Source: Robertkochia marina
Lineage (GTDB): Bacteria > Bacteroidota > Bacteroidia > Flavobacteriales > Flavobacteriaceae
Assembly: GCF_004799345.1 (NCBI RefSeq)
Contig: NZ_SSMC01000004.1
Span: 62,001-126,000, forward strand
Direction: 5' to 3'
DNA length: 64,000 nucleotides
A model generated the notes under the pieces. The model was given only the letters and a program-made list of their open reading frames with translations. It had not been told where the DNA came from and searched no databases. Positions 701 through 14,287 of this stretch are shown in pieces. Numbering within the stretch: position 1 is the first letter of the stretch; each line of letters opens with the position of its first letter. Position numbers and translations under genes: made by a program.

Positions 701-709
<9 letters not shown>

Positions 710-2278
710 AAAAGGCAGCTTCCCTTCCGGGGTGAGCTCACCGTTCAGAATGCGCGCCGCTGTTTTCTGAAATGCCTTGAGATGCTGTCCGCAGAAAAGT
801 ATGTTGGCTGCATCCTTTATTCCCGGAATGACCTGTACGCTGTAATGATTGCCGAATACCAGGAAGGTTACCCGGTGGCGTTCCGTGAGCCCTTTCAGCA
901 TTTCCAGGTTCTCATCAGAATACCCAAAATTACCTGCGGGTTTTACATGAGGGGGGTATAGTGCTACCACGATTTCATTTTGGGTGCTCAGGTTGAGGTT
1001 GCCGGTGTGCTTATCCACCCGGATGGCAGTGAATTTTTGAGAGGTTTCCAGGGTTTTCAAAAAACCGTTTTCCCGCTTATGTTCCCCTACCAAAACAACT
1101 GTATCCGGCGATATTTCCGGGGTTTTGATTTTCAGGGATACGATGCTTTTTTGTGCGATACGGGTATTGATATCTTTTGCTTTCTCATGGTCCGGTTCGC
1201 CAATAGGTTTCTTACTTTCCAGGGTGCCGACCTTTTCTTTGAGGGAAAGGATTCGTTCTACCGCCTCGCGGATAGAAGCTTCACTGCAGTTACGAAGGAT
1301 CTTTTCCTTTCCTTCCTTAATGTTCTCTGAGAAACAAAGCATATCGTTCCCTGCCTGGAAGGCCTTAAGTTCCAACAGTCCTTTTTCAGGATAAAGTTTA
1401 CTGACACTATGCATATTAAGGGCATCAGAGATGACCACCCCTTCAAAGTTCATTTCTTCTCTCAGTACGCCTTTAATGATCTTTTCTGATAAGGTGGCAG
1501 GAAGGGTATCATGTCCGCTCAGGGCGGGTACGGCGAGGTGTCCGACCATCACCGAATCGACCCCTTTGGCAATGAGTTTTTTAAAAGGATACAATTCCTG
1601 TTCCTCCAATTCCTTTCGGCTTTTTCCGATCACCGGTAGTCCAAGGTGAGAATCTACAGCCGTATCGCCATGGCCCGGAAAGTGCTTTAAGCTGTTTGCT
1701 ACTCCCGCCCTGGCAAGTCCTTCGCAGTATTGAGCAGCTTTTTGAAATACCTTCTCCCGGGATGCGCCAAAGGAGCGGTACCCGATCACCGGATTTTGCG
1801 GATTGGTGTTGATGTCTACCACGGGAGCCAGGTTGAAGTCTATGCCGGCTGACTTCAGGTCGCGCCCGATCTGATACCCCGCCTCGAAAATAAGATCGTC
1901 ATATTGCTCATCGAGGGAGCCAAGAGTGATCGCATAGGGGTATTGAGGGGTTTCTTCTACCCTCATGGCCAACCCCCATTCGGCATCGATGCTGATAAGA
2001 AGGGGGATCTCTGAAATTGCCTGGTACCTGGAGATCAATTGCTTTAATTTCTCAAGGCTGTCAGCATAGGAGATCACCTCCTTTTTTTCGTAGTTGGTAG
2101 CGGCACTGGCCCTGCTGTGAAAAAAGGTGATGCCTCCGATCTTCTGTTCCCTGATCAGACGCTCCATGTCTTCAATGCCCGCTTCGTCGTCATGAATAAA
2201 TGCTGCCGGGCAGAACAATTGCCCTGCCAGGTCCTCGAGGGGGTGTTCCTTCAGGATAGTAGCTGTCTTACTGCTCAT
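701..2278 (-). CDS. nagZ: NagZ-like GH3 beta-N-acetylhexosaminidase
   Basis: This 525-residue protein has a complete GH3 N-terminal barrel. The hallmark KHFPGHGDT lies at 198-206 with DSH at 209-211, giving the His/Asp pair used by NagZ enzymes as general acid/base. The predicted nucleophile is D285 in VVISDALNM. About 200 further residues match the second domain present in the longer NagZ proteins of Bacillus and Bacteroidota. No signal peptide is visible, so a cytoplasmic location is inferred, where the enzyme would remove GlcNAc from imported GlcNAc-anhydroMurNAc or GlcNAc-MurNAc fragments. It is the last gene of the susC-to-nagZ run and starts 5 bp after the AmpG-like carrier gene. A non-peptidoglycan hexosaminidase role cannot be excluded from sequence. 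Confidence 0.85.
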
Positions 2279-2282
2279 GATC

Positions 2283-3596
2283 TTATTCTTCTTTTTTACC
2301 GTAGTCGGCAGGGTACTTTAAATAACGTACGATCAAAATACCCGGTATGGCTGCGAGTACTACCCAGATAAAGAATCCGGTATACCCAAGATACTCCTGA
2401 ATATACCCGCTGATCATTCCGGGAAGCATCATACCAAGGGCCATAAATCCTGTGGCGATGGCATAGTGAGAAGTCTTGGAAATACCTTCTGCAATGTAAA
2501 TGAGATACATCAGGTAGGCGGCAAAACCAAAGCCGTACCCAAATTGTTCTATCACCACGACCACCGCCGCGTATATAACAGAATCGGGGGTGAAAACACT
2601 GAGTAATACGTAAAATAAATTTGGAAGGTTCAGTGCCAGGATCATAGGCATCATCCATTTGCCGAGCCCGTCCCTGGAGATCACTAAGCCTCCTAATATT
2701 CCTCCGAGGGATAGCGCAATAATTCCCAGGGTGCCATAAATGGTACCCACTTCGGTAGTACTTAGGGCAAGTCCGCCCGTACTTCTCTCATCAAGAAGAA
2801 AGGGAGAGGCCATCTTAACCAATTGTGATTCGCCCAGGCGATAGAGCAGCACGAAAGCCAGGGCCATTCCGATCTGTTTCTTTTCAAAAAAGGACTTGAA
2901 CACGCCAATGAAATCGAGTTGTTTTCCTGAGGTGTCTTCGGTGTTTTCTTCTATGGCAGGAGTGGTGAAAAAATTGATCAGGGTAAGAACGATCATAAGA
3001 ACTCCGGTAATGATCATGGTGTATGACCATGCCTTGGTATTGTCTCCAAATCGCTCCTCCAACAAACCTGCAATGACTACTATGAGTCCCTGCCCGGTGA
3101 TCATGGCCAGGCGGTAAAAAGTACTTCTTACGCCCAGGAAGAAAGATTGTTTTTTCTCGCTCAGGGCTATCATGTAATAACCGTCTGATGCGATATCGTT
3201 GGTAGCAGAGGCAAAGGCGGCCATCCAGAAACAGGCCAGGGAGATCATAAAGAAGGCAGAGGTGCCAAGAGTGAACCCGGTGAGTAAAAAGGCCAGGGCC
3301 ACCAGGAGTTGCATGCCCAGGAACCATTTACGTTTGGTACCCTTCAGGTCTACGAGAGGGCTCCAGATAGGCTTGATCACCCAGGGCAGATACAGCAGGC
3401 TGGTGTATAATCCGATATCAGCATTACTTACCCCCAGTTTTTTGTACATGATCACCGAAACGGTGATCACGATCACATAGGGAATACCCTCGGTAAAATA
3501 GAGGGATGATACCCACCACCAGGGATTCTTTTTACTGGCTGTTTTTGTCATTTCTTCTGAGTAGGTTTTCATATACGCTGGTTTCAGAGCCTTCAA
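2283..3596 (-). CDS. AmpG-like MFS carrier (muropeptide permease candidate)
   Basis: This 437-residue polytopic protein (about 12 hydrophobic segments) has the AmpG-type start region WWWVSSLYFTEGIPYVIV followed by LYTSLLYLPWVIKPIWSPLV. This SLYFxEGxPY/LPW.IKPxW pattern is typical of the AmpG/acetyl-CoA-transporter branch of the major facilitator superfamily. The expected role is uptake of peptidoglycan-derived disaccharides or muropeptides from periplasm to cytoplasm. Two starts are possible: 3596, or the Met at 3551 (MTKTASKKN). The second overlaps the upstream GNAT stop codon by about 20 bp and gives a more typical N-terminus. Its position between a DigH-like glycosidase and a NagZ-like enzyme supports the substrate inference. 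Confidence 0.82.
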   Translation of the reverse strand: MKALKPAYMKTYSEEMTKTASKKNPWWWVSSLYFTEGIPYVIVITVSVIMYKKLGVSNADIGLYTSLLYLPWVIKPIWSPLVDLKGTKRKWFLGMQLLVALAFLLTGFTLGTSAFFMISLACFWMAAFASATNDIASDGYYMIALSEKKQSFFLGVRSTFYRLAMITGQGLIVVIAGLLEERFGDNTKAWSYTMIITGVLMIVLTLINFFTTPAIEENTEDTSGKQLDFIGVFKSFFEKKQIGMALAFVLLYRLGESQLVKMASPFLLDERSTGGLALSTTEVGTIYGTLGIIALSLGGILGGLVISRDGLGKWMMPMILALNLPNLFYVLLSVFTPDSVIYAAVVVVIEQFGYGFGFAAYLMYLIYIAEGISKTSHYAIATGFMALGMMLPGMISGYIQEYLGYTGFFIWVVLAAIPGILIVRYLKYPADYGKKEE

Positions 3597-4023
3597 TAAC
3601 GACGGCGTTCACGGTTTTTCTATAGTATTCTTCAGGGCCTACACCACCTATGATGCCATAGGCGTATCCTTGCTCTTTGAGGGCTTGCAGGGCTTTTATC
3701 AATAAGACCTTTCCGATGCCCTGCCCCCTGGCCGATTCAACGGTTCCGGTAGGGCCGAAAAAGGCTTTGGCGGTGGTTTCATAACAGGAAAAGCCAAGAA
3801 TTTCATTGTTTTTCTGGGCTACAAAACAGCTTACAGGCTGCCGGCTGAAAGCAACTTCAACCTCGTTGGCCCAGAATTCGCTGAAATGCTGTTTTACCCA
3901 TTCGCTAACGAGGCTCTTTTCGGGGGCAATCGGTCTTCTGATCACGATACCTTTATTGATGAGCTCATCCTCGAGATCGTTCACATTCGGTAAAGCCACT
4001 AATCGTACTAACATGTCTTTCAT
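3532..4023 (-). CDS. GNAT-family N-acetyltransferase
   Basis: This 163-residue protein contains the GNAT acetyl-CoA loop GTVESARGQGIGKVLLIKAL (Q/RxxGxG/A type, about residues 93-112) and a C-terminal region YRKTVNAVVIEGSE. The substrate cannot be read from sequence. It is embedded between the digH-like and ampG-like genes with 12 bp upstream spacing and a downstream overlap, so co-transcription is likely. Glucosamine/glucosaminide acetyltransferases are known in peptidoglycan salvage (GlmA of Clostridium), so amino-sugar re-acetylation is one hypothesis. Peptide or antibiotic acetylation is another. Confidence 0.8.
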   Translation of the reverse strand: MKDMLVRLVALPNVNDLEDELINKGIVIRRPIAPEKSLVSEWVKQHFSEFWANEVEVAFSRQPVSCFVAQKNNEILGFSCYETTAKAFFGPTGTVESARGQGIGKVLLIKALQALKEQGYAYGIIGGVGPEEYYRKTVNAVVIEGSETSVYENLLRRNDKNSQ

Positions 4024-4035
4024 GATTCCCGGGTA

Positions 4036-5529
4036 TTATAAGGATATATTTTGCAGTTCACTTTCATTACCGAATCGGTCTGTCACTGAGAAGATCAGTG
4101 ATCCATTCTCTGTTACAGGAACACTTAATTGTACTTCTCTTTTTTGAGCGAATATCGGAACGATGGTTTTTATATGCTTAGCCTTATTCATTTTGTTCGG
4201 TTGTACCTTGTCAAGGTTGTAGATCACGATCTCCTTTACAGGAGATGAGGTGGTGATATTCAGTTCGATACTTCCGTTTGTTCCTGCTCCTACTGTTCTT
4301 TTTACCTCCTGCACCACAGGGGGTTGTCCGGAAGAGGGCAGGGCCGGGGTCAGTGCCTTGTACTTGTAGGCTTCCTTCAACAGGCTGACCACCTCGTCTT
4401 TTCCGCTCATCAATGATTTGGCACTAAAGTAAATATTCCCGTTCACTTGTTCGGCTTTTCGGGCAAGCTTTACCTGTTTTAAAAGTTGGTCCTCCTTTTG
4501 CCAGTCAGGATCCTTATCACTCATGGCGCGATAGGCCCCGTTACCCACGTAGAGGTTAACATTCTCTGTATTTTCATCCCACCAGTTCAGGATGGTTTTG
4601 TGAGAGGCCAGCGGATGGTTCAGGGTCCAGTAGATCTGGGGAGCCAGGTAATCGATCCAGCCATTTCGAAGCCAGGACATAGGATCGGCATAGAGGTCGT
4701 CATAATTGGTCTGACCGGCTTTGGTATCAGAACCCCTCGGGTCCTGCGATTTATTGCGCCAAACCCCGAACGGACTAATGCCGAACTGCACCCAGGGCTT
4801 TCTTGATTTGATGCCGTGGTGAAGTTTACTGATCAGGCTGTCAACATTGGCCCTTCGCCAATCGCCCAAGGATTGGCCGGGGAGGTGCTCGGCTGTATAC
4901 CGGGCACTGTCCTGAAATACTTCCCCTTTGATCTTGTAGGGGTAGAAGTAGTCGTCAAAATGAATGGCATCTATATTATAGTTGTCTACCAGTTCATTGG
5001 TGATAGCTGTGAGGTGGTCTTGCACCTCGGGCAGCGCCGGGTCGTAATAATATTTTTTACCGTATTTGATCATCCATTCCGGATGCTTATTGAAATCATG
5101 GGTAGGGGCCAGGGCGGCTGTATCCAGGTTAAAAGTAGCCCTGTAAGGATTCATCCAGGCGTGAAACTCCATGCCTCTTTCATGAGTAGTATTGATCATC
5201 CACTCCAGCAGATCATGGTAGGGTTCAGATGCTTCTCCCTGGGTGCCGGTAAGGTAGGCCGACCAGGGGGCCATTTCGGTAGGGTAGAAGGCATCACCGG
5301 CAGTACGAACCTGTACGACTGCTGCATTAAAATTGAGAGATTCGTAGAAATCGAGGATCTCCAGAAAGTCCTGTTTTTTCTTTTCGAGGTCATCGTCACC
5401 ATTTTTTGGCCAGTCGATGTTGACCACGGTGGCGATCCAGGCACCTCGTAATTCGTGTTTTGGGGTCTTGTTTCCTGCACAGGAAACCAGTAAGAAGACT
5501 AACAGAAGAGAAAGAAGCGTGCGGGTCAT
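4036..5529 (-). CDS. digH: DigH/YngK-like GHL10 (DUF187) glycoside hydrolase lipoprotein
   Basis: The chosen start is the ATG complementary to 5527-5529. A frame start at 5691 would run back into the susD gene and add 54 unlikely residues. The resulting 497-residue protein begins MTRTLLSLLLVFLLVSCAGN, a lipoprotein signal with C17. The GHL10/DUF187 hallmark ELRGAWIATVVNIDWP follows directly, and the barrel continues with VVQVRTAGDAFYPTEMAPWS, IHFDDYFYPY and YLAPQIYW motifs. E. coli DigH (YddW) of this family cleaves glycan strands stripped of peptides. A fibronectin-like C-terminal region (KRTVGAGTNGSIELN onward) follows. Lipidation places it in the envelope, probably the outer membrane, next to the SusCD pair encoded upstream. 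Confidence 0.85.
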   Translation of the reverse strand: MTRTLLSLLLVFLLVSCAGNKTPKHELRGAWIATVVNIDWPKNGDDDLEKKKQDFLEILDFYESLNFNAAVVQVRTAGDAFYPTEMAPWSAYLTGTQGEASEPYHDLLEWMINTTHERGMEFHAWMNPYRATFNLDTAALAPTHDFNKHPEWMIKYGKKYYYDPALPEVQDHLTAITNELVDNYNIDAIHFDDYFYPYKIKGEVFQDSARYTAEHLPGQSLGDWRRANVDSLISKLHHGIKSRKPWVQFGISPFGVWRNKSQDPRGSDTKAGQTNYDDLYADPMSWLRNGWIDYLAPQIYWTLNHPLASHKTILNWWDENTENVNLYVGNGAYRAMSDKDPDWQKEDQLLKQVKLARKAEQVNGNIYFSAKSLMSGKDEVVSLLKEAYKYKALTPALPSSGQPPVVQEVKRTVGAGTNGSIELNITTSSPVKEIVIYNLDKVQPNKMNKAKHIKTIVPIFAQKREVQLSVPVTENGSLIFSVTDRFGNESELQNISL

Positions 5530-5542
5530 AGGGTAGGGAATA

Positions 5543-5573
5543 AAAAGGCCCGCCCTTAATGGGCGGACCTTTG
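5543..5573 (-). terminator. Hairpin plus T-run between susD and digH
   Basis: On the minus strand an AAAGG-x-CCGCCC arm pairs with GGGCGG-x-CC across a short ATTAA loop and is followed by TTTTTATT. It lies inside the apparent operon, between the susD stop and the digH start, so it could partly terminate transcription and set a higher level of SusCD than of the downstream enzymes. Confidence 0.7.
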
Positions 5574-5596
5574 CCTGATTAATGGTTCTAACTAAT

Positions 5597-6892
5597 TCAA
5601 ACTTCAGGGTCAGTTGGTGTGTTGGTGTTGTTATCGCGTTCTGCGTTCGGATAAGGATACCAGTTACGGTTTCTCTCCGCATTGGCATCATTAGGCCCGG
5701 GACGACCGAAACGACGGCTGTCTTCCAGCTTCATTCCACTCATATAGAGCTCTATACAACGGTTCTTGTAGATCTCGGTTAATACCGCAGCCTGATCTGC
5801 CGGACCTGCATAAGCCGGTAAACCTGCACCCAGCCCAAGAGGATCTTCAGCCGGAGTTTTGGTCAAAACGGCATCTAAGGCGGCTACTGCAGCAGAGATA
5901 TTTCCTTCTCTGGCATTGGCCTCCGCGATGATCAACTGCATTTCTCCCGGAACGTATACCGGAATAGATGCCCCGTCACTGGTAAAGAAACCTTTTCCGT
6001 TATCGGCATTGGCTTCCAGGTAAAAATCAATACGGGCATCTGTAGAGTCGGTTACCGCCAGGTCGCCTTCCAATCCGAAGAAAGGATTCGTCTTGGCATC
6101 AAACACATTATTCGTGGTTAATGAAGATCGGAAAACAGGGTTTGGCGAAACTTCATCGTATATAAATACAGATGTTGATCCCGGATCTACAGCGTTGGCT
6201 GCTGATATGGCTTTGGTGTTATCTCCGTTCATCAGGGAGTAACGGGCTATCAGGGCCTGGATGGCATTCGGGAGGTCTATTTGTGAACCTACCGCTCCGG
6301 TTACCTGTTCAGGAACTCCGCTTCCGACCAGGGTAGCTGCCTCTTCCAGGCTGCTAATGGCCAGGTTCAACGCTTCTGAACGACTTACAAAGGGGGCGTT
6401 GGCCTCAGAGGTTACTACTCCTTGTTCCCAGAATTGACTCATGGTACCTAAGGCAAGGCCTTTGTAAAACAATCCGTAGGCACGAATTGCACTTTCAACC
6501 TCAGGGGTTCCGGCATTCCCGGCATTATCAATAACGGTCTGGGCATTGTTGCGCACCAGTTGCAGGTTGGTCCAAAGATTGGTCACCACAGAGTTTCCTG
6601 GAGTTAAGGTACCGCCTCCATCCAGAAGGTTGGCCAGGGGAGCGTTACCTGCATTGATCAGGTCAAGTTCTCCGGCACTGAAACCACTTCCGGTAATAGC
6701 ACTGTAGAGTCCGCTGCCACCGCCTACGGTATACTGATACTCCAGGCCGACGATCAATCCCAACAGGTTGTTGGTAGATTCGGTAACCGCCTGCACAAGG
6801 GGTGCATTGGGATTTTCGAAATCCGTTTCACAGGAAGGCAGCAGAACAACCGTTCCCATAGAAAGCATGATGGTATATATTATTTTCTTCAT
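5597..6892 (-). CDS. susD: SusD/RagB-family outer-membrane nutrient-binding lipoprotein
   Basis: This 431-residue protein starts MKKIIYTIMLSMGTVVLLPSC, a lipoprotein signal with C21 followed by acidic residues (ETDFENPN) as usual for surface lipoproteins of Bacteroidota. TPR-like helical repeats and the C-terminal pattern EIYKNRCIELYMSGMKLEDS-RRFG-NWYPYP are typical of SusD/RagB. At 431 residues it is shorter than many members (about 500). It lies 11 bp downstream of susC and would cap the SusC barrel. The ligand is not visible. The neighbourhood suggests amino-sugar glycans or muropeptides. Confidence 0.92.
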   Translation of the reverse strand: MKKIIYTIMLSMGTVVLLPSCETDFENPNAPLVQAVTESTNNLLGLIVGLEYQYTVGGGSGLYSAITGSGFSAGELDLINAGNAPLANLLDGGGTLTPGNSVVTNLWTNLQLVRNNAQTVIDNAGNAGTPEVESAIRAYGLFYKGLALGTMSQFWEQGVVTSEANAPFVSRSEALNLAISSLEEAATLVGSGVPEQVTGAVGSQIDLPNAIQALIARYSLMNGDNTKAISAANAVDPGSTSVFIYDEVSPNPVFRSSLTTNNVFDAKTNPFFGLEGDLAVTDSTDARIDFYLEANADNGKGFFTSDGASIPVYVPGEMQLIIAEANAREGNISAAVAALDAVLTKTPAEDPLGLGAGLPAYAGPADQAAVLTEIYKNRCIELYMSGMKLEDSRRFGRPGPNDANAERNRNWYPYPNAERDNNTNTPTDPEV

Positions 6893-6903
6893 TGTCTTTT
6901 GTT

Positions 6904-9900
6904 TTAGAATGATGCTGATAAACGTAATTGTAAGGTTGCAGGAATTGGCACGTTACCAAAGTCATCTCCTCGCACACGGTTACTTTGTCCTGCAGAGTTG
7001 GTCTCCGGGTCAAAACCGGTGTAATCGTCAAAAGATACCAGGTTTCTACCGATCAGGCTTACCTGAAGGTTCTCAGCAAAGGAGGTCTGACCGAAGTCAT
7101 AAGATACCTGCAACTCTCTTAATTTTACGAAAGAACCGTCTTCTACGTGGAATTCCTGGATACGAGGTCCGATGAATCCACCGATGGCGGCTACCCAACC
7201 ACGTGGCACTTCTCCGCGAAGCTCAGCCTCAGCCAGCTGACCGTTACCAACGTTGTTACCGGTAATAGAGTTCCAGTTGTATACATCAAATCCGCCGATG
7301 GCATCCAGTTGCATACGGAAATTCCAACGCTTGTAACTGAACTCATTGATGAAAGAAGCCGTATACTCCGGATTCGGATCACCAAGGATCTTACGCAAAG
7401 GAGTGCCGTCAGGTTGTCCGTTAGCATCTCTTTGGATCTCTCCGGTGGTATCATCACCACGTTCTACCTGAGGAAGTCCGTCAGGTGAAAGTAATAAACT
7501 TCCGTCTTCGTTTCGGGCAAAAAAGGTTCCAACGAACACCCCTAATGGCTGTCCATCGATCAAACTCTGGGTTCCGCCACCACCACGTATGGCCTGACCA
7601 AGACGTCCGGTGTTGGCATCATTCACTTCATTGTTGTAGGTGTTGTAGGCCAGGGAACTGTTCCAGATAAAGTTATCTGATCTGATCGGGGTCACGTTCA
7701 ATTGTAATTCAATACCGTTATTCTTCATGGTACCAACATTGGTAAGAAGCGAAGTACCTCCCGAAGTCGGAGCTGTACCTACAGTAAGTACAAGGTCTTC
7801 GATATTCTGAGTGTAATAGGTACCCTGAAGTGCCAGGCGTCCGTTCCAGAAAGACATATCAGCACCCACCTCGAATTCTTTCATTCGCTCCGGTCTGATG
7901 TTCTCATCACCAAGGCTGGAAGTAGCAACAAAGCCACCAAGACCACCCAGTAGTACCGGATTCGCAAAATTAAATCGGCTGAAGGGTCCGATGGCTGTAA
8001 GGTTACCGGCTTCTCCGTAAGAAGATCTCAGCTTAAGCGTATTCCAAAATGAATCCTTGTTCCAGAAATCAAAATCCGACAGGATGATAGAAGTACTGGC
8101 TTTAGGATAGAACTGGTTTCTGTTGTCAGGTGAGAAAGAAGAAGCACCGTCAATCCGTCCTGAAAGGGTCAGATAGATCTTGTTATCCCAGTTCAGGTTT
8201 TCCTGAAGGAATCCTCCCCAAAGGGCAAATTCAGATCTTGACTCCGATGGAGGATTGAACAGGTTAAGAACCCCGTTGATCGTCTGTACACCTCCCTGAA
8301 GGTCTCTACCTTCGGCACGCGTCGATTCTGATCTTCTGTACAGGTACTGTCCTCCCACGGTGGAAGTCAACGTAAAATCTTCAGTAAGCTTTAACTTATA
8401 GTCAGCAACCAGGTCGCTGGTTCTGCTCAGGAAGTTATTGGTCGCCACACTGGCATAACCATCAGGGAAGAAAGATGCACTTACCCCACTATAAGGAACT
8501 CTTGGCTGGAAAACATTACCCTTCAGAGAATAGCTGTCCTGACCGGCCGTGTACTTAATGTTCAGGTTTTCGATCGGCGTATAGTTAAAGGTTACATTCC
8601 CGATAAAACGATTGGTCTCCTGTGTAATGTCGTAGGTCTCAATAATGGTCAATGGATTCAAACGTACAGGCTCCACGGGTAAAAGGTTGCCCAGTTCATC
8701 TCTTTCGTCAGCATCCCAAACATTATCGGTAATGAATAACGAACTGATCGGACTGAAGAAGTTGTTTCCGTTAGGTTTGTCCTCACTGCTTGAATTGTTA
8801 TAGGTAAGTCCGGCTGTCATGCTTAACTTACTGGAAAGCTCCTGGGTATAGGTTAATCGGGCACCGTATTTCTGGAAATAGGTATCTTCAATAACCCCCT
8901 GGTTACGGTTGTAATTGGTAGAGAAATACAGTTTAGATTTCTCAGATCCTCCTGCAATAGAGAAGTTGTTTTCGGTACCATAGGCAATATCTCTGAAGAT
9001 AAGATCCTGATAGTCATATCTTGTTACAGCGTATGTTTCTTCTACTAACGGACGCCCGGCAAGGGCCGCAGGGCCTGTACCCGGAAGGGCCGCACGGTCA
9101 TCTGCAGAACGCAGGTCGGCAATAGTGGTTAAACGGTCGCCGGTCGTGTTAAGACGCTCACTTCCGGGATATCCGAATCTTTCAGGGAAATCGTTAAAGT
9201 CAAGACGCTTTCTTACCCAGCTGGTATTTCCGGCCGTACTGAAGTTTACCCTGGCATCACCGGCTTTACCTTTTTTGGTGATGATCTGTACCACCCCGTT
9301 AGATGCCAAAGATCCGTAGATCGCAGCAGCAGCTGCACCATTTAGTACCTCGATGCTTTCAATGTCGTTAGGGTTGATGTCTACCAGACGGTTTTGCCCT
9401 GCCTGGAAACTTGTACCCATAGCATCGGCATTAAGGTTGATCACGTTTTGAGAGCTGTTGTCAACAATAACCCCATCAATAACGTATAACGGCTCTGAAG
9501 ATCCGTTAATGGTACTGATACCACGAAGTCTTACAGAGAAACCACCGGCAGGATCTCCCGAGTTTTGAGTAACAATGGCACCGGCAACCTTACCTGAAAT
9601 GGCAGATAAAGGGTTGTTAGATCCGGTGTTGGCGATCTCGGCCGCCTTAATAGATCCAACTGCGTTACCCAGCGATCGTCGGCTCACATTTCCGGCGGTA
9701 CCGGTAACCACGATCTCATCGAGGTTCAGTAAGTCTTCGGTTAACTGGAAGTTTACGGTAAATGAACTCTGGCTCCCTACTTCAATAGTAGCCTTGCTGG
9801 TGGCAAACCCCAGGTAGGCTGCCTCGAGCACGTATGACCCGCTGTCCAGGCCAACATTTAATTCATAATTACCGTCAAAATTGGTCGTGGTTCCAAAGGT

Positions 9901-10080
9901 AGTTCCGGATACCATTACAGTTACCCCCGCCAGGGGTGTGCCGCTATTGGTATCTGTCACTGTTCCCGAAATGGAAACGATGTTGGCCTGAGCGATCATG
10001 GCCAACGGCAGCAACAGCAAGCCCAGAAACATCAGGGCCTTTGTTGTCTTACTGTTTTTTAGTAAGCGTTTGTTGTTCAT
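6904..10080 (-). CDS. susC: SusC/RagA-family TonB-dependent outer-membrane transporter
   Basis: This 1058-residue protein has a signal peptide (LLLLPLAMIAQA), a carboxypeptidase-regulatory-like domain (about residues 34-120, ISGTVTDTNSGTPLAGVTV), then a TonB plug with EIVVTGTA, VRLRGISTI, YVIDGV and the SusC signature DIESIEVLNGAAAAAIYGS followed by GVVQIITKKG. The rest is a beta-barrel ending in LRLSASF with the expected terminal Phe. It is the first gene of the six-gene minus-strand run and is divergent from deoR, with a 301-bp shared regulatory region. Its role is active import of oligosaccharides or glycopeptides across the outer membrane together with SusD. Confidence 0.95.
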   Translation of the reverse strand: MNNKRLLKNSKTTKALMFLGLLLLPLAMIAQANIVSISGTVTDTNSGTPLAGVTVMVSGTTFGTTTNFDGNYELNVGLDSGSYVLEAAYLGFATSKATIEVGSQSSFTVNFQLTEDLLNLDEIVVTGTAGNVSRRSLGNAVGSIKAAEIANTGSNNPLSAISGKVAGAIVTQNSGDPAGGFSVRLRGISTINGSSEPLYVIDGVIVDNSSQNVINLNADAMGTSFQAGQNRLVDINPNDIESIEVLNGAAAAAIYGSLASNGVVQIITKKGKAGDARVNFSTAGNTSWVRKRLDFNDFPERFGYPGSERLNTTGDRLTTIADLRSADDRAALPGTGPAALAGRPLVEETYAVTRYDYQDLIFRDIAYGTENNFSIAGGSEKSKLYFSTNYNRNQGVIEDTYFQKYGARLTYTQELSSKLSMTAGLTYNNSSSEDKPNGNNFFSPISSLFITDNVWDADERDELGNLLPVEPVRLNPLTIIETYDITQETNRFIGNVTFNYTPIENLNIKYTAGQDSYSLKGNVFQPRVPYSGVSASFFPDGYASVATNNFLSRTSDLVADYKLKLTEDFTLTSTVGGQYLYRRSESTRAEGRDLQGGVQTINGVLNLFNPPSESRSEFALWGGFLQENLNWDNKIYLTLSGRIDGASSFSPDNRNQFYPKASTSIILSDFDFWNKDSFWNTLKLRSSYGEAGNLTAIGPFSRFNFANPVLLGGLGGFVATSSLGDENIRPERMKEFEVGADMSFWNGRLALQGTYYTQNIEDLVLTVGTAPTSGGTSLLTNVGTMKNNGIELQLNVTPIRSDNFIWNSSLAYNTYNNEVNDANTGRLGQAIRGGGGTQSLIDGQPLGVFVGTFFARNEDGSLLLSPDGLPQVERGDDTTGEIQRDANGQPDGTPLRKILGDPNPEYTASFINEFSYKRWNFRMQLDAIGGFDVYNWNSITGNNVGNGQLAEAELRGEVPRGWVAAIGGFIGPRIQEFHVEDGSFVKLRELQVSYDFGQTSFAENLQVSLIGRNLVSFDDYTGFDPETNSAGQSNRVRGDDFGNVPIPATLQLRLSASF

Positions 10081-10153
10081 AATTTGAATTAGTTAACTAT
10101 TAATTAGAATGTTGAATGGTCTGTTTAAAAAACTTATAGCCCGGAGATGCGCG

Positions 10154-10167
10154 CGCAAACGTTTGCG
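10154..10167. promoter_or_regulatory. 14-bp palindrome, LacI/PurR-box-like operator candidate
   Basis: CGCAAACGTTTGCG is a perfect inverted repeat with a central CG, the form of LacI-family operators; it coincides with the E. coli PurR consensus core. It lies about 75 bp upstream of the susC start codon. The regulator that binds it is unknown, and the adjacent regulator gene is of the DeoR family. Confidence 0.5.
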
Positions 10168-10353
10168 TTTTTTCGCAGTATTTCTGGCGTTTTCATCCGT
10201 AACCTGCCGTTTTCAAGTAAGACTATCCTCTCAAATAACGTCAATTTTTCTAATTTATGCAAGTTATTGCTGTTTTATATTGGAAAAAAACGTATTATTA
10301 GGAAGAATTTACCGACAAGAAACTGCAAAAAACTGCAGATTTAGATTTTTTGC

Positions 10354-10361
10354 TATCTTTG
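10354..10361 (+). promoter_or_regulatory. Bacteroidota -7 element (TATCTTTG) for deoR
   Basis: Exact match to TAnnTTTG, 20 bp before the chosen deoR start codon at 10382. No clear TTG was found at the -33 position; the AACTGCA direct repeats at 10321-10337 occupy that place, as expected for a repressor site. Confidence 0.55.
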
Positions 10362-10381
10362 TTAAAATAATTACAAAAATT

Positions 10382-11131
10382 ATGTTAAAAGCCGAGCGCC
10401 ATCAACACATCCTGAATGAGGTGAGCATCCGAAGCCGGATCCAGCTCTCTGACATTGCCGATACCCTGGGGGTGAGCATCGATACCATACGAAGAGATGT
10501 CAAGGAATTAGATGACAATAAAAAGTTGAAAAAGGTGCACGGAGGAGCCATTTCCTTAGGCTATAATATTTTTCCGTTTTCCAATAACGAGGTTTTTAAC
10601 AAAGAAAAGAAGGCGCAGATCGCTCAAAAGGCCATTACCCTGATCAAAGAGAACGCTGTGATCCTGATGAGTGGAGGTACCACGAATCTTGAACTGGCCC
10701 GGCAATTACCGGCCGATATGGATATTACAGTATTTACACCCAGCCTGCCTATTGCCATGCAATTGCTGGCCCACCCCAAGGCCGAGGTCATTGTGATCGG
10801 AGGAAAGGTCTCAAAAGATGCCCAATTGGCTATTGGCGCCCAGGTGGTGCAGGAACTGGGGAATATCAGGGCCGATCTGTGTTTTTTGGGTACCGGTTAC
10901 CTGGATATTGAACACGGATTGACCGAATTTGATTATGAGGTGGTACAGGTAAAAAAAGCCATGATCAATAGTTCAAGACGTATCGTATCTTTGTGTATTT
11001 CAGAAAAACTTAACTCTGTACAACGCTTTAAGACCTGTGATATCCGGGATATAGATACCCTGATCACTGAATTGCCGCCCGATGCAGAAGTATTAAGGCC
11101 ATATCAGTCTTTTAACGTAAACCTTTTATAA
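10382..11131 (+). CDS. DeoR/GlpR-family transcriptional regulator
   Basis: The start at MLKAERHQHIL is chosen because DeoR proteins begin exactly this way and a TAnnTTTG element lies just upstream. The 249-residue protein has the DeoR winged-helix domain (about residues 1-57: IQLSDIADTLGVSIDTIRRDVKEL, then KVHGGA) and the phosphosugar-sensing domain with ILMSGGTTNLELARQLP. DeoR proteins usually sense sugar phosphates, so MurNAc-6-P or GlcNAc-6-P is a natural effector candidate given that murQ follows 13 bp downstream. It is probably the local regulator of both divergent operons. Confidence 0.92.
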   Translation: MLKAERHQHILNEVSIRSRIQLSDIADTLGVSIDTIRRDVKELDDNKKLKKVHGGAISLGYNIFPFSNNEVFNKEKKAQIAQKAITLIKENAVILMSGGTTNLELARQLPADMDITVFTPSLPIAMQLLAHPKAEVIVIGGKVSKDAQLAIGAQVVQELGNIRADLCFLGTGYLDIEHGLTEFDYEVVQVKKAMINSSRRIVSLCISEKLNSVQRFKTCDIRDIDTLITELPPDAEVLRPYQSFNVNLL

Positions 11132-11144
11132 CAGGTAGAAGAAC

Positions 11145-11951
11145 ATGACTAAGATCACAGAACAATCATCCCTTCATGATCATTTGGAAAGGATGTCTTC
11201 TGAGGAATTGCTCAGGAGAATGAATGAAGAGGATAAGAAAGTGGCTGAGGCCGTTGAGAAGGTGATACCCCAGGTAGCCCTCCTGGTAGAAGAACTTACG
11301 GGTCGATTCCTTGATGGAGGACGATTATTTTATATCGGGGCCGGTACCAGCGGAAGACTGGGTGTCCTGGATGCCTCTGAAATTCCTCCTACCTTCGGTA
11401 TGCCCTTTGATCGGGTGGTAGGGCTCATTGCCGGTGGTGATGGCGCTATTAGAAAAGCCGTGGAGTTTGCCGAAGATGATACCAGCCAGGCCTGGAAAGA
11501 CCTGATGGAATACAATATCACAGAGAATGATGTGGTGGTAGGCATTGCAGCCTCCGGAACCACTCCCTACGTGTTGGGAGGAATGAAGGCCGCTAAGGAA
11601 CACGGAATTCTCACCGCCGGAATTACCAATAATCCCGGATCGCCCCTGGCGAAGGCTGTCGATATTCCCATTGAGGTTAACGTAGGTCCGGAATTCGTTA
11701 CCGGGAGTACCAGAATGAAAAGCGGAACCTCTCAAAAACTGGTGCTGAATATGATCAGTACCGCCCTGATGATCCGCATCGGAAGAGTGGAAGGGAATAA
11801 GATGGTGAACATGCAGCTCAACAATAAAAAGCTGGTGCACCGCGGTATTCGTTTTATCATGGAAGCTACCGGTATTGACCAGAAAACCGCCGCCAAAACC
11901 CTGGAAATGTACGGCTCTGTGAAAAAGGCCATACAGGCTTTGAGGGGATAG
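11145..11951 (+). CDS. murQ: N-acetylmuramic acid 6-phosphate etherase
   Basis: This 268-residue SIS-domain protein has the MurQ motifs LFYIGAGTSGRLGVLDASE and VGPEFVTGSTRMKSGTSQK. E79 (in ASE) and E110 (in FAEDD) align by spacing with the catalytic E83 and E114 of E. coli MurQ. The C-terminal MEATGIDQKTAAKTLE helix pair is also conserved. The enzyme removes D-lactate from MurNAc-6-P to give GlcNAc-6-P in the cytoplasm. It is slightly shorter than the E. coli protein (about 298). It follows deoR by 13 bp. No MurNAc kinase (MurK/AnmK) is encoded in the window, so the phosphorylating step must be elsewhere. Confidence 0.96.
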   Translation: MTKITEQSSLHDHLERMSSEELLRRMNEEDKKVAEAVEKVIPQVALLVEELTGRFLDGGRLFYIGAGTSGRLGVLDASEIPPTFGMPFDRVVGLIAGGDGAIRKAVEFAEDDTSQAWKDLMEYNITENDVVVGIAASGTTPYVLGGMKAAKEHGILTAGITNNPGSPLAKAVDIPIEVNVGPEFVTGSTRMKSGTSQKLVLNMISTALMIRIGRVEGNKMVNMQLNNKKLVHRGIRFIMEATGIDQKTAAKTLEMYGSVKKAIQALRG

Positions 11952-12362
11952 TTTACAGTTAGCAGTTTACAGTTAGCAGTTTGCAGATTGTACTTTTCGA
12001 TTTTCAATACCCGATTTCAAAAGTTTGTTTTCGCCTTTGCGGGGCCGAGCGTAAAGGGCCGAACGGTAGTGAAAGGTTCGGTGAACCTTTCATAGTGAGG
12101 AGCCAGGAGGTGCGATGGCAAGTGAACCATTTTAGCGAACCTGCCTGACGGCAGCCAGGGGAGCCAGCCGGCGGGATGGCAGGAAGGCCGGGGTGGTTAG
12201 CAAGTTCCTTAACGTCTGAATTGATAATCCGTCAGTGGTAGGCCATTGCATGGCCTCGCGAAGACGATCATAATCCTTACCCGCATAACCGCATAACGGT
12301 ATACCTGCCTGCCGCAGGCAGGACTGCCTAACTTTGCCTATATTTAGACAAAAATTTCTTCT
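11952..12362. repeat. Intergenic repeat cluster murQ-amidase
   Basis: This 411-bp gap starts immediately after the murQ stop with five heptamers at 11952-11986 (TTTACAG, TTAGCAG, TTTACAG, TTAGCAG, TTTGCAG). A hairpin with 9-bp arms lies at 12071-12091 (GAAAGGTTC, GGT loop). Another lies at 12240-12256 (AGGCCAT/ATGGCCT). Octamers CCGCATAA twice and CGGTATAC lie at 12281-12304, and a 9-bp-arm palindrome CCTGCCTGC-C-GCAGGCAGG lies at 12304-12322. A -7 promoter element for the next gene lies at 12329-12336. No coding sequence was recognised. Confidence 0.75.
12329..12336 (+). promoter_or_regulatory. -7 element (TAACTTTG) for the amidase gene
   Basis: Exact TAnnTTTG match 26 bp before the amidase start codon, immediately downstream of the CCTGCC palindrome. 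No TTG at the -33 position was seen. Confidence 0.45.
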
Positions 12363-14003
12363 ATGCGTACTACTTTACTTTCTTTAGTGCTTATGCTCTC
12401 TCTCTTTGGCTGTAAACAGGAGAAGGAAGAGGTGCCGGGTTATAATGAAGCACTGCTGATCGAACAGCAACAGGAGCATGAAAATCCCAGAATGCGTTAT
12501 AAGCTGATAGCTTCCAGGGTAGAGCGACCCGATATGTTCGCGCCCTTTGAAAAGGCACTTGATAAATTTGGGGAAGAGCGCTATACAGAAATGATGCCCC
12601 TGGTACTGGAGCGATCTATTCCTGAAATTCAGGAATCGGTGGCTGCCGAAGAATTCACCTATGAAGAGCTTTGCCTGTTCTACCTGTGGCGAATAAGAAA
12701 ATACGAGCAAAACCCTGAAACATCATTGCACACCATTATCAGTCTTAATCCACAGATCTTGGAACAGGCTGCCGCCATGGATCGTTTGAGACAACAACAG
12801 GAAAATAAGCATCCCATTTTCGGAATGCCTGTATTATTAAAGGATAATATCGGGGCTGAAGGTATGCCAACAACAGCGGGAGCTGTAGTGCTTCAGGATA
12901 ATATGGCAGGTGATGCCTTTATTACCAAACAACTTAAAAGTAAAGGAGCTCTGATTCTCGGAAAAGCAAATCTTAGTGAGTGGGCTTACTATTTCTGCCA
13001 GGGATGTCCGGTGGGGTATTCGGCCATTGGAGGGCAGACCCTGAATCCATACGGTCCCCGGGAATTCGAAACCGGTGGTTCCAGTTCCGGAAGCGGAGTG
13101 GCAATTGCCGCAAACTATGCGGTGGGGGCTGTAGGTAGTGAAACCTCCGGGTCGATCTTGTCGCCCTCCGGCCAGAATTCCGTGGTGGGCTTAAAGCCAA
13201 CCATAGGGGTCCTCGGAAGAACGGGGATCGTACCGATCTCGAGTACTCTTGATACTCCGGGACCTATGACTAAGAATGTTACCGACAACGTGATCCTGAT
13301 GGATGCCATGTCAGGAGAAGATCCTGATGATGCTGCTTCCCTGGGAGGCACCGCAGATTATCTTGCCGCCCTTTCGGGTACTGAGCTGCAAGGCAAACGT
13401 CTTGGGGTTTACCAACCCTATATGGAGAGTGACAGTCTTTATGCTCAGGCGGTGGAGGCATTGCGTAAAGCCGGTGCTGAGATCCTGGTCTATGAAGAGC
13501 AGGAGGGAGGCCGTATGCAAGGTTTTACCACCTTGTTGAATATGGATATGAAATACGATCTGCCGGCCTACCTGGAAGAACATTCCTCCAAGAATATTAC
13601 TGTGAGAGAGGTAGCTGATATAGCGCAGTTTAATCTGCAGGATACGCTGGTTAGAATGCCTTACGGACAAAAATATTTTCAGGATATCATTGCCGATACC
13701 ACCTCGAGTACGGCCCTTGAAGCTATCAAAGAAACTTTAAGGGTAGAAGGACAGAAACGATTTGATATGGCTCTAAAAATTGATAATGTTGATGCCTTTT
13801 TGTCGATCAATAATTATTCGGCCGGCTATGCGGCTGTGGCTAAATATCCCGCTTTGTGTGTGCCCATGGGCTACACCCCATCCGGAGAGCCGGAAGGCAT
13901 TACCCTGATCGGACTGCCTTATTCAGAGAAAGAATTGCTGGAACTGGGTATGGCCATAGAAACTGTGCTTAAGGCCCGAAAACAACCGGAAATCTATAAA
14001 TAA
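12363..14003 (+). CDS. Amidase-signature family lipoprotein
   Basis: This 546-residue protein starts with a lipoprotein signal (MRTTLLSLVLMLSLFGC, C17). The amidase-signature triad is visible: K160 (MPVLLKDN), cis-Ser S240 (ETGGSSSGSG) and nucleophile S264 (GSETSGSI), with the 24-residue Ser-Ser spacing seen in FAAH-type enzymes. It is envelope-located, unlike the cytoplasmic GatA. The closest functional analogues known to me are peptide amidases. Its place after murQ makes hydrolysis of an amide in peptidoglycan-derived material (for example amidated stem peptides) an attractive but unproven idea. It has its own promoter-like element. Confidence 0.87.
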   Translation: MRTTLLSLVLMLSLFGCKQEKEEVPGYNEALLIEQQQEHENPRMRYKLIASRVERPDMFAPFEKALDKFGEERYTEMMPLVLERSIPEIQESVAAEEFTYEELCLFYLWRIRKYEQNPETSLHTIISLNPQILEQAAAMDRLRQQQENKHPIFGMPVLLKDNIGAEGMPTTAGAVVLQDNMAGDAFITKQLKSKGALILGKANLSEWAYYFCQGCPVGYSAIGGQTLNPYGPREFETGGSSSGSGVAIAANYAVGAVGSETSGSILSPSGQNSVVGLKPTIGVLGRTGIVPISSTLDTPGPMTKNVTDNVILMDAMSGEDPDDAASLGGTADYLAALSGTELQGKRLGVYQPYMESDSLYAQAVEALRKAGAEILVYEEQEGGRMQGFTTLLNMDMKYDLPAYLEEHSSKNITVREVADIAQFNLQDTLVRMPYGQKYFQDIIADTTSSTALEAIKETLRVEGQKRFDMALKIDNVDAFLSINNYSAGYAAVAKYPALCVPMGYTPSGEPEGITLIGLPYSEKELLELGMAIETVLKARKQPEIYK

Positions 14004-14008
14004 TTGTT

Positions 14009-14287
14009 ATGTCAGAACGTAACCTGGTCATTGTGACCAAGATCATCGGCTATTATTGTGGTTTTTATATGGGGGTTAAATTGTATGCGGTGTTTTCCGG
14101 AACCCCCTTGCCGGGGCCCCAGCTGGTGCTGGCAGGATTGCTGTTCCTTTTGGGTTTTACGGCCTTTTACCTGTTGAAAAAGGAAAAACACAACTGGCCT
14201 TTCGCCCTTTTTGGGATCGTAGTGGTAAGTGCCCTTCGATATTTTGAAAATGACCTGGTGGTGTGGCTTTCAGGTATTTTGGGATGA
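14009..14287 (+). CDS. Small membrane protein, unknown function
   Basis: This 92-residue protein has about three hydrophobic segments (IGYYCGFYMGVKLYAVF, LVLAGLLFLLGFTAFYLL, WPFALFGIVVVSALRYF). I do not recognise a family. It starts 5 bp after the amidase stop, so it is probably co-transcribed. No catalytic motif is visible. Confidence 0.7.
   Translation: MSERNLVIVTKIIGYYCGFYMGVKLYAVFSGTPLPGPQLVLAGLLFLLGFTAFYLLKKEKHNWPFALFGIVVVSALRYFENDLVVWLSGILG

Follow-up and report, generated by a model that had tools for sequence, protein, structure and literature searches.

By what route might cell wall fragments from outside the cell enter a flavobacterium? The question is raised by a gene cluster of Robertkochia marina (Flavobacteriaceae) in which a SusC/SusD pair (SusCD) sits among genes of the kinds that process peptidoglycan sugars. 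The cluster occupies positions 701 to 14287 of the window, the 64,000-nucleotide stretch analysed here (RefSeq assembly GCF_004799345.1, contig NZ_SSMC01000004.1, positions 62,001 to 126,000). The literature passages at hand do not describe the passage of such fragments through the outer membrane in scavenging Bacteroidota. On balance, we judge it probable that the locus scavenges external peptidoglycan fragments and is a flavobacterial wall-recycling operon to which a SusCD pair has been added. We give about an even chance to a broader proposition: that this SusD/SusC subfamily is a dedicated outer-membrane importer of wall fragments containing muramic acid in several families of the class, and that it entered one slot of the flavobacterial recycling operon on two or more occasions, turning recycling into feeding on the walls of other bacteria. 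The observed basis consists of profile-based gene identities, conserved linkage, the gene neighbours of the SusD subfamily and a recurring 12-mer; from these we infer substrate, direction of flow, products and regulation.

The genes around the pair keep the same company in other genomes. We compared the best 80 of at least 567 confirmed MurQ relatives (own locus excluded). Some of these loci are short or stop at the edge of a contig, which makes every count of absence an upper bound. In 76 of the 80, deoR sits next to murQ. An AmpG-like gene precedes them on the opposite strand in 69; NagZ joins this order in 58, and NagZ together with DigH in 41. No AmpG-like gene in the 80 relatives breaks the AmpG-deoR-murQ arrangement. 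Clustering of open reading frames (ORFs) placed DeoR in 76 loci, an AmpG-like carrier in 73, NagB/PIG-L in 72, a NagZ-type enzyme in 64, a DigH-type enzyme in 59 and AnmK in 56 (NagB/PIG-L and AnmK domains verified on one representative each), with SusD in 14, SusC in 13 and GNAT in 12; tblastn gave 15/80 for SusC and 14/80 for SusD. NagZ and AnmK are undercounted in the SusCD-bearing loci because the flank often stops short of both. Eleven of the 12 loci with GNAT also carry SusD, an association too thin to test since it comprises just three independent pairs. The initial annotation had proposed a wall-sugar pathway that would show conserved linkage among relatives, and these counts bear it out.

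The SusD of the window belongs to a divergent subfamily, recognisable in alignment by the C-terminal motif ERNRN.YPYP and forming one group in a tree against 30 background SusDs (Shimodaira-Hasegawa-like approximate likelihood ratio support 100). Own genome included, 10 of the 199 genomes sampled in the family have the subfamily, as do at least 14 of 395 in the class, a lower bound as four candidates were scored per genome; eleven members lie outside the family. Six of the nine other family members adjoin MurQ, AnmK or NamZ: MurQ and AnmK in L102, NamZ in L101, NamZ and a NagZ-type GH3 in L103, L104 and L105, and a whole cluster with truncated SusCD in L106. Another, L100, has as neighbours NagB/PIG-L and a gene of the enolase superfamily that looks by eye like a dipeptide epimerase. 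NamZ, MurQ or AmpG is found no more than 5 kb from five of six subfamily SusDs and from none of 102 other SusDs; at up to 10 kb the figures are 5/6 and 2/102. This comparison took 109 SusDs from seven of the ten subfamily-bearing genomes (110 PF07980 matches, less one second piece in a single frame), with the own SusD excluded and L106 among the six; the genomes of L100, L102 and L107 were left out, as were SusD-like_2 (PF12771) pairs, a type confirmed in L138. The 2 of 102 counted at 10 kb (G119, G173) do sit in wall-sugar clusters (L140, L141). Outside the family, four of the 11 members, all from one family (4/4 there), adjoin AnmK-like and NagB/PIG-L genes, and two of these loci also hold a GHL10 gene (one AnmK and one GHL10 Pfam-confirmed). 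This linkage supports the earlier suggestion that SusCD is the likely outer-membrane step.

The likely route is as follows. Wall fragments would be imported across the outer membrane by SusCD and trimmed in the periplasm by the GHL10 lipoprotein, whose products would be anhydro-ended sugars should its action resemble that of Cwp19. They would enter the cytosol through the AmpG-like carrier, and there the NagZ-type GH3 would split off N-acetylglucosamine (GlcNAc). AnmK, encoded elsewhere, would phosphorylate anhydro-N-acetylmuramic acid, MurQ would yield GlcNAc-6-phosphate and D-lactate, and NagB/PIG-L, whose gene is likewise not at this locus, would supply glycolysis. Both arms would be under the control of DeoR, acting from their common region and probably sensing a sugar phosphate. 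If the scheme is right, the turnover of dead bacterial walls would be tied to known genes, and the pair could serve as a marker for wall-feeding polysaccharide utilisation loci (PULs) in metagenomes; it is testable through the SusCD subfamily with its C-terminal motif, the recurring operator-like site and the convergent gene neighbours.

Profile searches recovered every gene named in the initial annotation, at about its stated coordinates and on its strand (Table 1), and order and strand recur in relatives. Only 11 bp separate susC from susD, the adjacent pair of a SusCD-type PUL, and the GH3 and GHL10 genes share their strand, as carbohydrate-active enzymes do in such loci. PRK05337 is the top NCBIfam match of the GH3 protein, at 167 bits against a cut-off of 207, for which reason we call it NagZ-type; its closest solved chain is a GH3 beta-N-acetylglucosaminidase, it carries at residue 198 a KHFPGHG...DSH loop that we take to be the NagZ motif, and no signal peptide was seen by eye at its N-terminus. 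The carrier is named AmpG-like since its top NCBIfam match, TIGR00901, falls under the curated cut-off of 350. The closest solved chains of MurQ include MurQ itself. SusD has an LLPSC lipobox with acidic residues following the cysteine; its predicted model, of low confidence (predicted local distance difference test score 60.4) and used for fold class only, gave 27 PDB matches (E up to 0.001), whose titles name SusD-like proteins, sugar- or glycan-binding proteins or parts of ButCD and RagAB complexes.

Table 1. Features of the Robertkochia marina locus and their positions in the window
Feature	Position	Strand	Remarks
NagZ-type GH3 beta-N-acetylglucosaminidase, probably cytosolic	701-2278	-	PF00933 240.6 bits
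AmpG-like muropeptide carrier (major facilitator superfamily)	2283-3596	-	PF07690 70 bits; TIGR00901 181 bits
GNAT acetyltransferase	3532-4023	-	PF00583 32.5 bits
GHL10 (DigH/Cwp19-type) lipoprotein	4036-5529	-	PF02638 237 bits; start taken at internal Met before lipobox
SusD, divergent subfamily	5597-6892	-	PF07980 25.4 bits (cut-off 23.1)
SusC TonB-dependent transporter	6904-10080	-	TIGR04056 580 bits (cut-off 368); PF13715, PF07715, PF00593
Divergent control region common to both arms	10081-10381		301 bp, computed
Operator-like 12-mer GCAAAAAACTGC, possible DeoR site	10325-10336	+	Sole exact copy within the window
DeoR-family regulator	10382-11131	+	PF00455, PF08220; start set by relatives
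MurQ, N-acetylmuramic acid 6-phosphate etherase	11145-11951	+	TIGR00274 319.7 bits (equivalog cut-off 302)
Amidase-signature lipoprotein	12363-14003	+	
92-aa ORF, membrane-type by eye	14009-14287	+	No Pfam match

The DigH/Cwp19-type label of the GHL10 lipoprotein rests on its PF02638 domain and on its sole solved-structure match, Cwp19 (E 2.9e-99); it is a probable lytic transglycosylase or glycan hydrolase. Its ORF spans 4036-5691, the likelier lipoprotein start being near 5529 (internal Met 55). By eye no acidic residues directly follow its cysteine, a difference from the export signals given in the excerpted text of PMC5080379, and the protein looks periplasmic, again as judged by eye.

The cluster had been described as complete-looking. 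It is not, since the genes for AnmK and NagB/PIG-L are at other places in the genome (3.58 Mb over 11 contigs): AnmK as the one PF03702 match, at C1:1433026, and NagB/PIG-L as a fusion gene. No protein of the genome exceeds the TIGR00221 cut-off for NagA; the PIG-L domain may replace it by deacetylating GlcNAc-6-phosphate. On C1 there is also a second SusCD cluster (L096:12883-17766 and L097:217-8877), with NagB/PIG-L, a BadF-type kinase under its cut-off, a GH20, a glycosylasparaginase-type asparaginase and a weak second GHL10 lipoprotein; its genes suggest a locus for GlcNAc or N-glycans.

The two arms had been said to share one regulatory region, and this is what we find. The DeoR ORF as listed begins at 10109, and the start common to relatives, at 10382 (249 aa), leaves 301 bp between the arms. 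Of 89 regions upstream of deoR, 73 contain the 12-mer GCAAAAAACWGC within one mismatch, compared with 31 of 1780 shuffled copies; the pattern was derived from the very regions used for the count, and two of the 89 (L027, L106) probably come from one genome. It recurs upstream of deoR whether SusCD is present or not. A TATCTTTG box, which we take to resemble the Bacteroidota -7 element, lies 17 bases past the 12-mer at 10354-10361. Upstream of the own nagB/PIG-L gene, 124-145 bp from its start (L096:15832-15853), there are two overlapping two-mismatch copies, and 9 matches at that locus compare with a mean of 3.95, a level reached in 3 of 200 shuffles. The case for a genome-wide DeoR regulon marked by the 12-mer is nevertheless weak, since two of its three exact copies in the genome adjoin no recognisable wall-sugar genes.

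The descent of the pair bears on how it came to the locus. The window SusD clusters with the 11 members from outside the family (support 100/99), and the 11 best SusC scores come from the same 11 loci, with nearly equal identities (about 42 versus 41%). Forcing the window SusD into the Flagellimonas group was rejected by the approximately unbiased test (p-AU 0.0003), with the group named after the tree was seen and the window SusD on a long branch. A tree of MurQ, DeoR and AmpG places the SusCD loci in one part and requires three changes, L071 being scored as SusCD-less although a partial SusC sits at its contig edge. As the window SusD is not closest to the same-slot SusDs of Flagellimonas, separate recruitment is suggested: we read the trees as at least two entries of the subfamily into one slot, but an old duplication followed by loss would also fit.

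Several findings weigh against the scavenging reading. By SusD match, SusCD is absent from 66 of the 80 locus relatives, and the MurQ-linked SusCD loci are not independent of one another, since they are confined to one part of the locus tree. Among the 11 outside-family members with which the window SusD groups, seven are unlinked to wall-sugar genes: no reference wall-sugar gene was found within about 10 kb of them, although two have DeoR nearby. These seven are the main evidence against a fixed link between this SusD and wall sugars, and two of the nine family members (L099, L107) are unlinked as well. The genome holds three exact copies of the 12-mer, two of which adjoin no recognisable wall-sugar genes, and the 12-mer is absent just upstream of the own AnmK gene (5 matches against 4.6 expected). 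A FAD/Fe-S oxidase seen in some related clusters has no match in the window. Finally, no surface enzyme able to open the sacculus is evident, as the GHL10 lipoprotein lacks, by eye, an acidic surface-export signal.

This last point suits the strongest competing account, which we regard as unlikely: that SusCD recaptures wall fragments shed by the cell itself and is a retrieval step rather than a feeding one. The core genes are of standard recycling kinds, 55 of the 66 relatives lacking a SusD match keep the AmpG-like, deoR and murQ arrangement, the GHL10 protein seems by eye to be periplasmic, and the locus has no recognisable surface hydrolase. In related clusters, however, there are also NamZ, NagB/PIG-L, a possible D-lactate oxidase and a GH18 that has a secretion tail, a set resembling one for carbon use; the argument is indirect, because the window cluster has none of these extras.

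A quite improbable alternative is that SusCD imports another GlcNAc glycan, such as chitin oligomers or N-glycans, and that its link to murQ reflects a common use of GlcNAc-6-phosphate. NagB/PIG-L and HGSNAT-type genes near several members would suit any GlcNAc source, the seven unlinked outside-family members are compatible with it, and the second SusCD cluster of the genome pairs NagB/PIG-L with GH20 and glycosylasparaginase. But MurQ, AnmK and NamZ are muramic-acid enzymes, established as useless for breaking down chitin or N-glycans, and a scan of nine cluster proteins matched neither GH18 nor GH20. That SusCD is a mere passenger between two divergent operons, unrelated to wall sugars, would accord with the 66 relatives without a SusD match and with the distance of the window SusD from its Flagellimonas counterparts, but is very improbable given the 5/6 against 0/102 proximity to wall-sugar genes in seven genomes and the occupation of the same slot by two subfamily lines.

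External scavenging, our preferred reading, can be set beside known systems. The enterobacterial recycling pathway is not known to have an active outer-membrane import step. The window locus shares with that pathway (AmpG-NagZ-AnmK-MurQ; the AmpG part is in PMC7670621) the same kinds of carrier, glucosaminidase and etherase, with AnmK present in the genome, and adds DeoR, GNAT, GHL10 and SusCD. The closest precedent, and the only close one among the openly licensed PMC papers listed, in which no substrate test of such systems was found, is a PUL of a flavobacterial mussel symbiont, Urechidicola (PMC10199937). It likewise clusters SusCD with deoR, murQ, ampG, GH3 and GH10, and differs in having two SusCD pairs, nagB, ampD, dacA, GH18, GH171, an epimerase and a sodium/iodide co-transporter; the likeness is one of gene content. 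Its authors remark on the murein genes without settling where the substrates come from. SusCD with murein genes is thus not new. A SusCD system for peptidoglycan had been called unusual: the low frequency of the subfamily in family and class agrees with this, but a similar PUL is already in print.

The ampG-murTKQ operon of Tannerella forsythia also joins AmpG and MurQ in a Bacteroidota cluster for wall-sugar uptake (PMC5388701, PMC7670621). Unlike the window locus it uses MurT and MurK; in the window these two do not accompany murQ, and neither a sodium symporter nor a BadF-type kinase was found among the nine cluster proteins. The excerpts that give the gene list of the Tannerella operon name no SusCD, and a word search of PMC5388701 found neither "SusC" nor "TonB". 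Its AmpG, tested in Escherichia coli, shares 27% identity with the E. coli protein (PMC7670621). NanOU is likewise a SusCD-type pair whose substrate is not a plant glycan but an acidic amino sugar; it differs in its substrate, sialic acid, and in that transport by complementation and binding by NanU were shown (PMC3969230). Cwp19 of Clostridioides difficile, for which lytic transglycosylase activity is reported, shares the GHL10 catalytic domain family but is a Gram-positive surface autolysin, whereas the window protein is a lipoprotein in an uptake cluster (PMC6016235). The excerpts of PMC6987092, PMC11658791, PMC12288456 and PMC10877868 held nothing decisive, and a word search of PMC8319329 gave no match.

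The amidase and the 92-aa protein, counted in the initial annotation as parts of the pathway, were rejected as such. Neither had a match at the other loci fetched (most of them about 20 kb long, so that genome-wide absence is not shown), and 411 bp separate murQ from the amidase gene, with 3 terminator-like sites between them against 3.2 in shuffles, no excess. The amidase belongs to the amidase-signature family and is not a known murein amidase; among solved structures it is closest to an amidase and to peptide amidases. The two are probably neighbours, not members of the locus.

Other clusters seen in passing are larger. G125 and G014 have a second SusCD, a sodium symporter, MurQ, GH3 and NamZ, and resemble the Urechidicola PUL; G125 also has GH18 (Pfam checks were made on G125 genes, the others by eye), and G173 carries a similar gene set on another contig, by eye. 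By locus, L103 with L138, L105 with L139, and L141 hold large clusters of wall-sugar genes in which NamZ, GH3, MurQ and a sodium symporter accompany SusCD pairs; GH18 is in L138 and, by eye, in L141. The FAD/Fe-S oxidase, of about 970 aa and possibly a D-lactate dehydrogenase, is found in MurQ-bearing SusCD clusters (L138:14526-17444, L141:7186-10095, L102:4062-6950); it could use the D-lactate released by MurQ. In Croceitalea dokdonensis, susC and susD are apparently reduced to a single 565-aa frame (L106:8711-10405, L027:5457-7151), in which a piece of SusC is joined to a SusD missing about its first third, a probable remnant.

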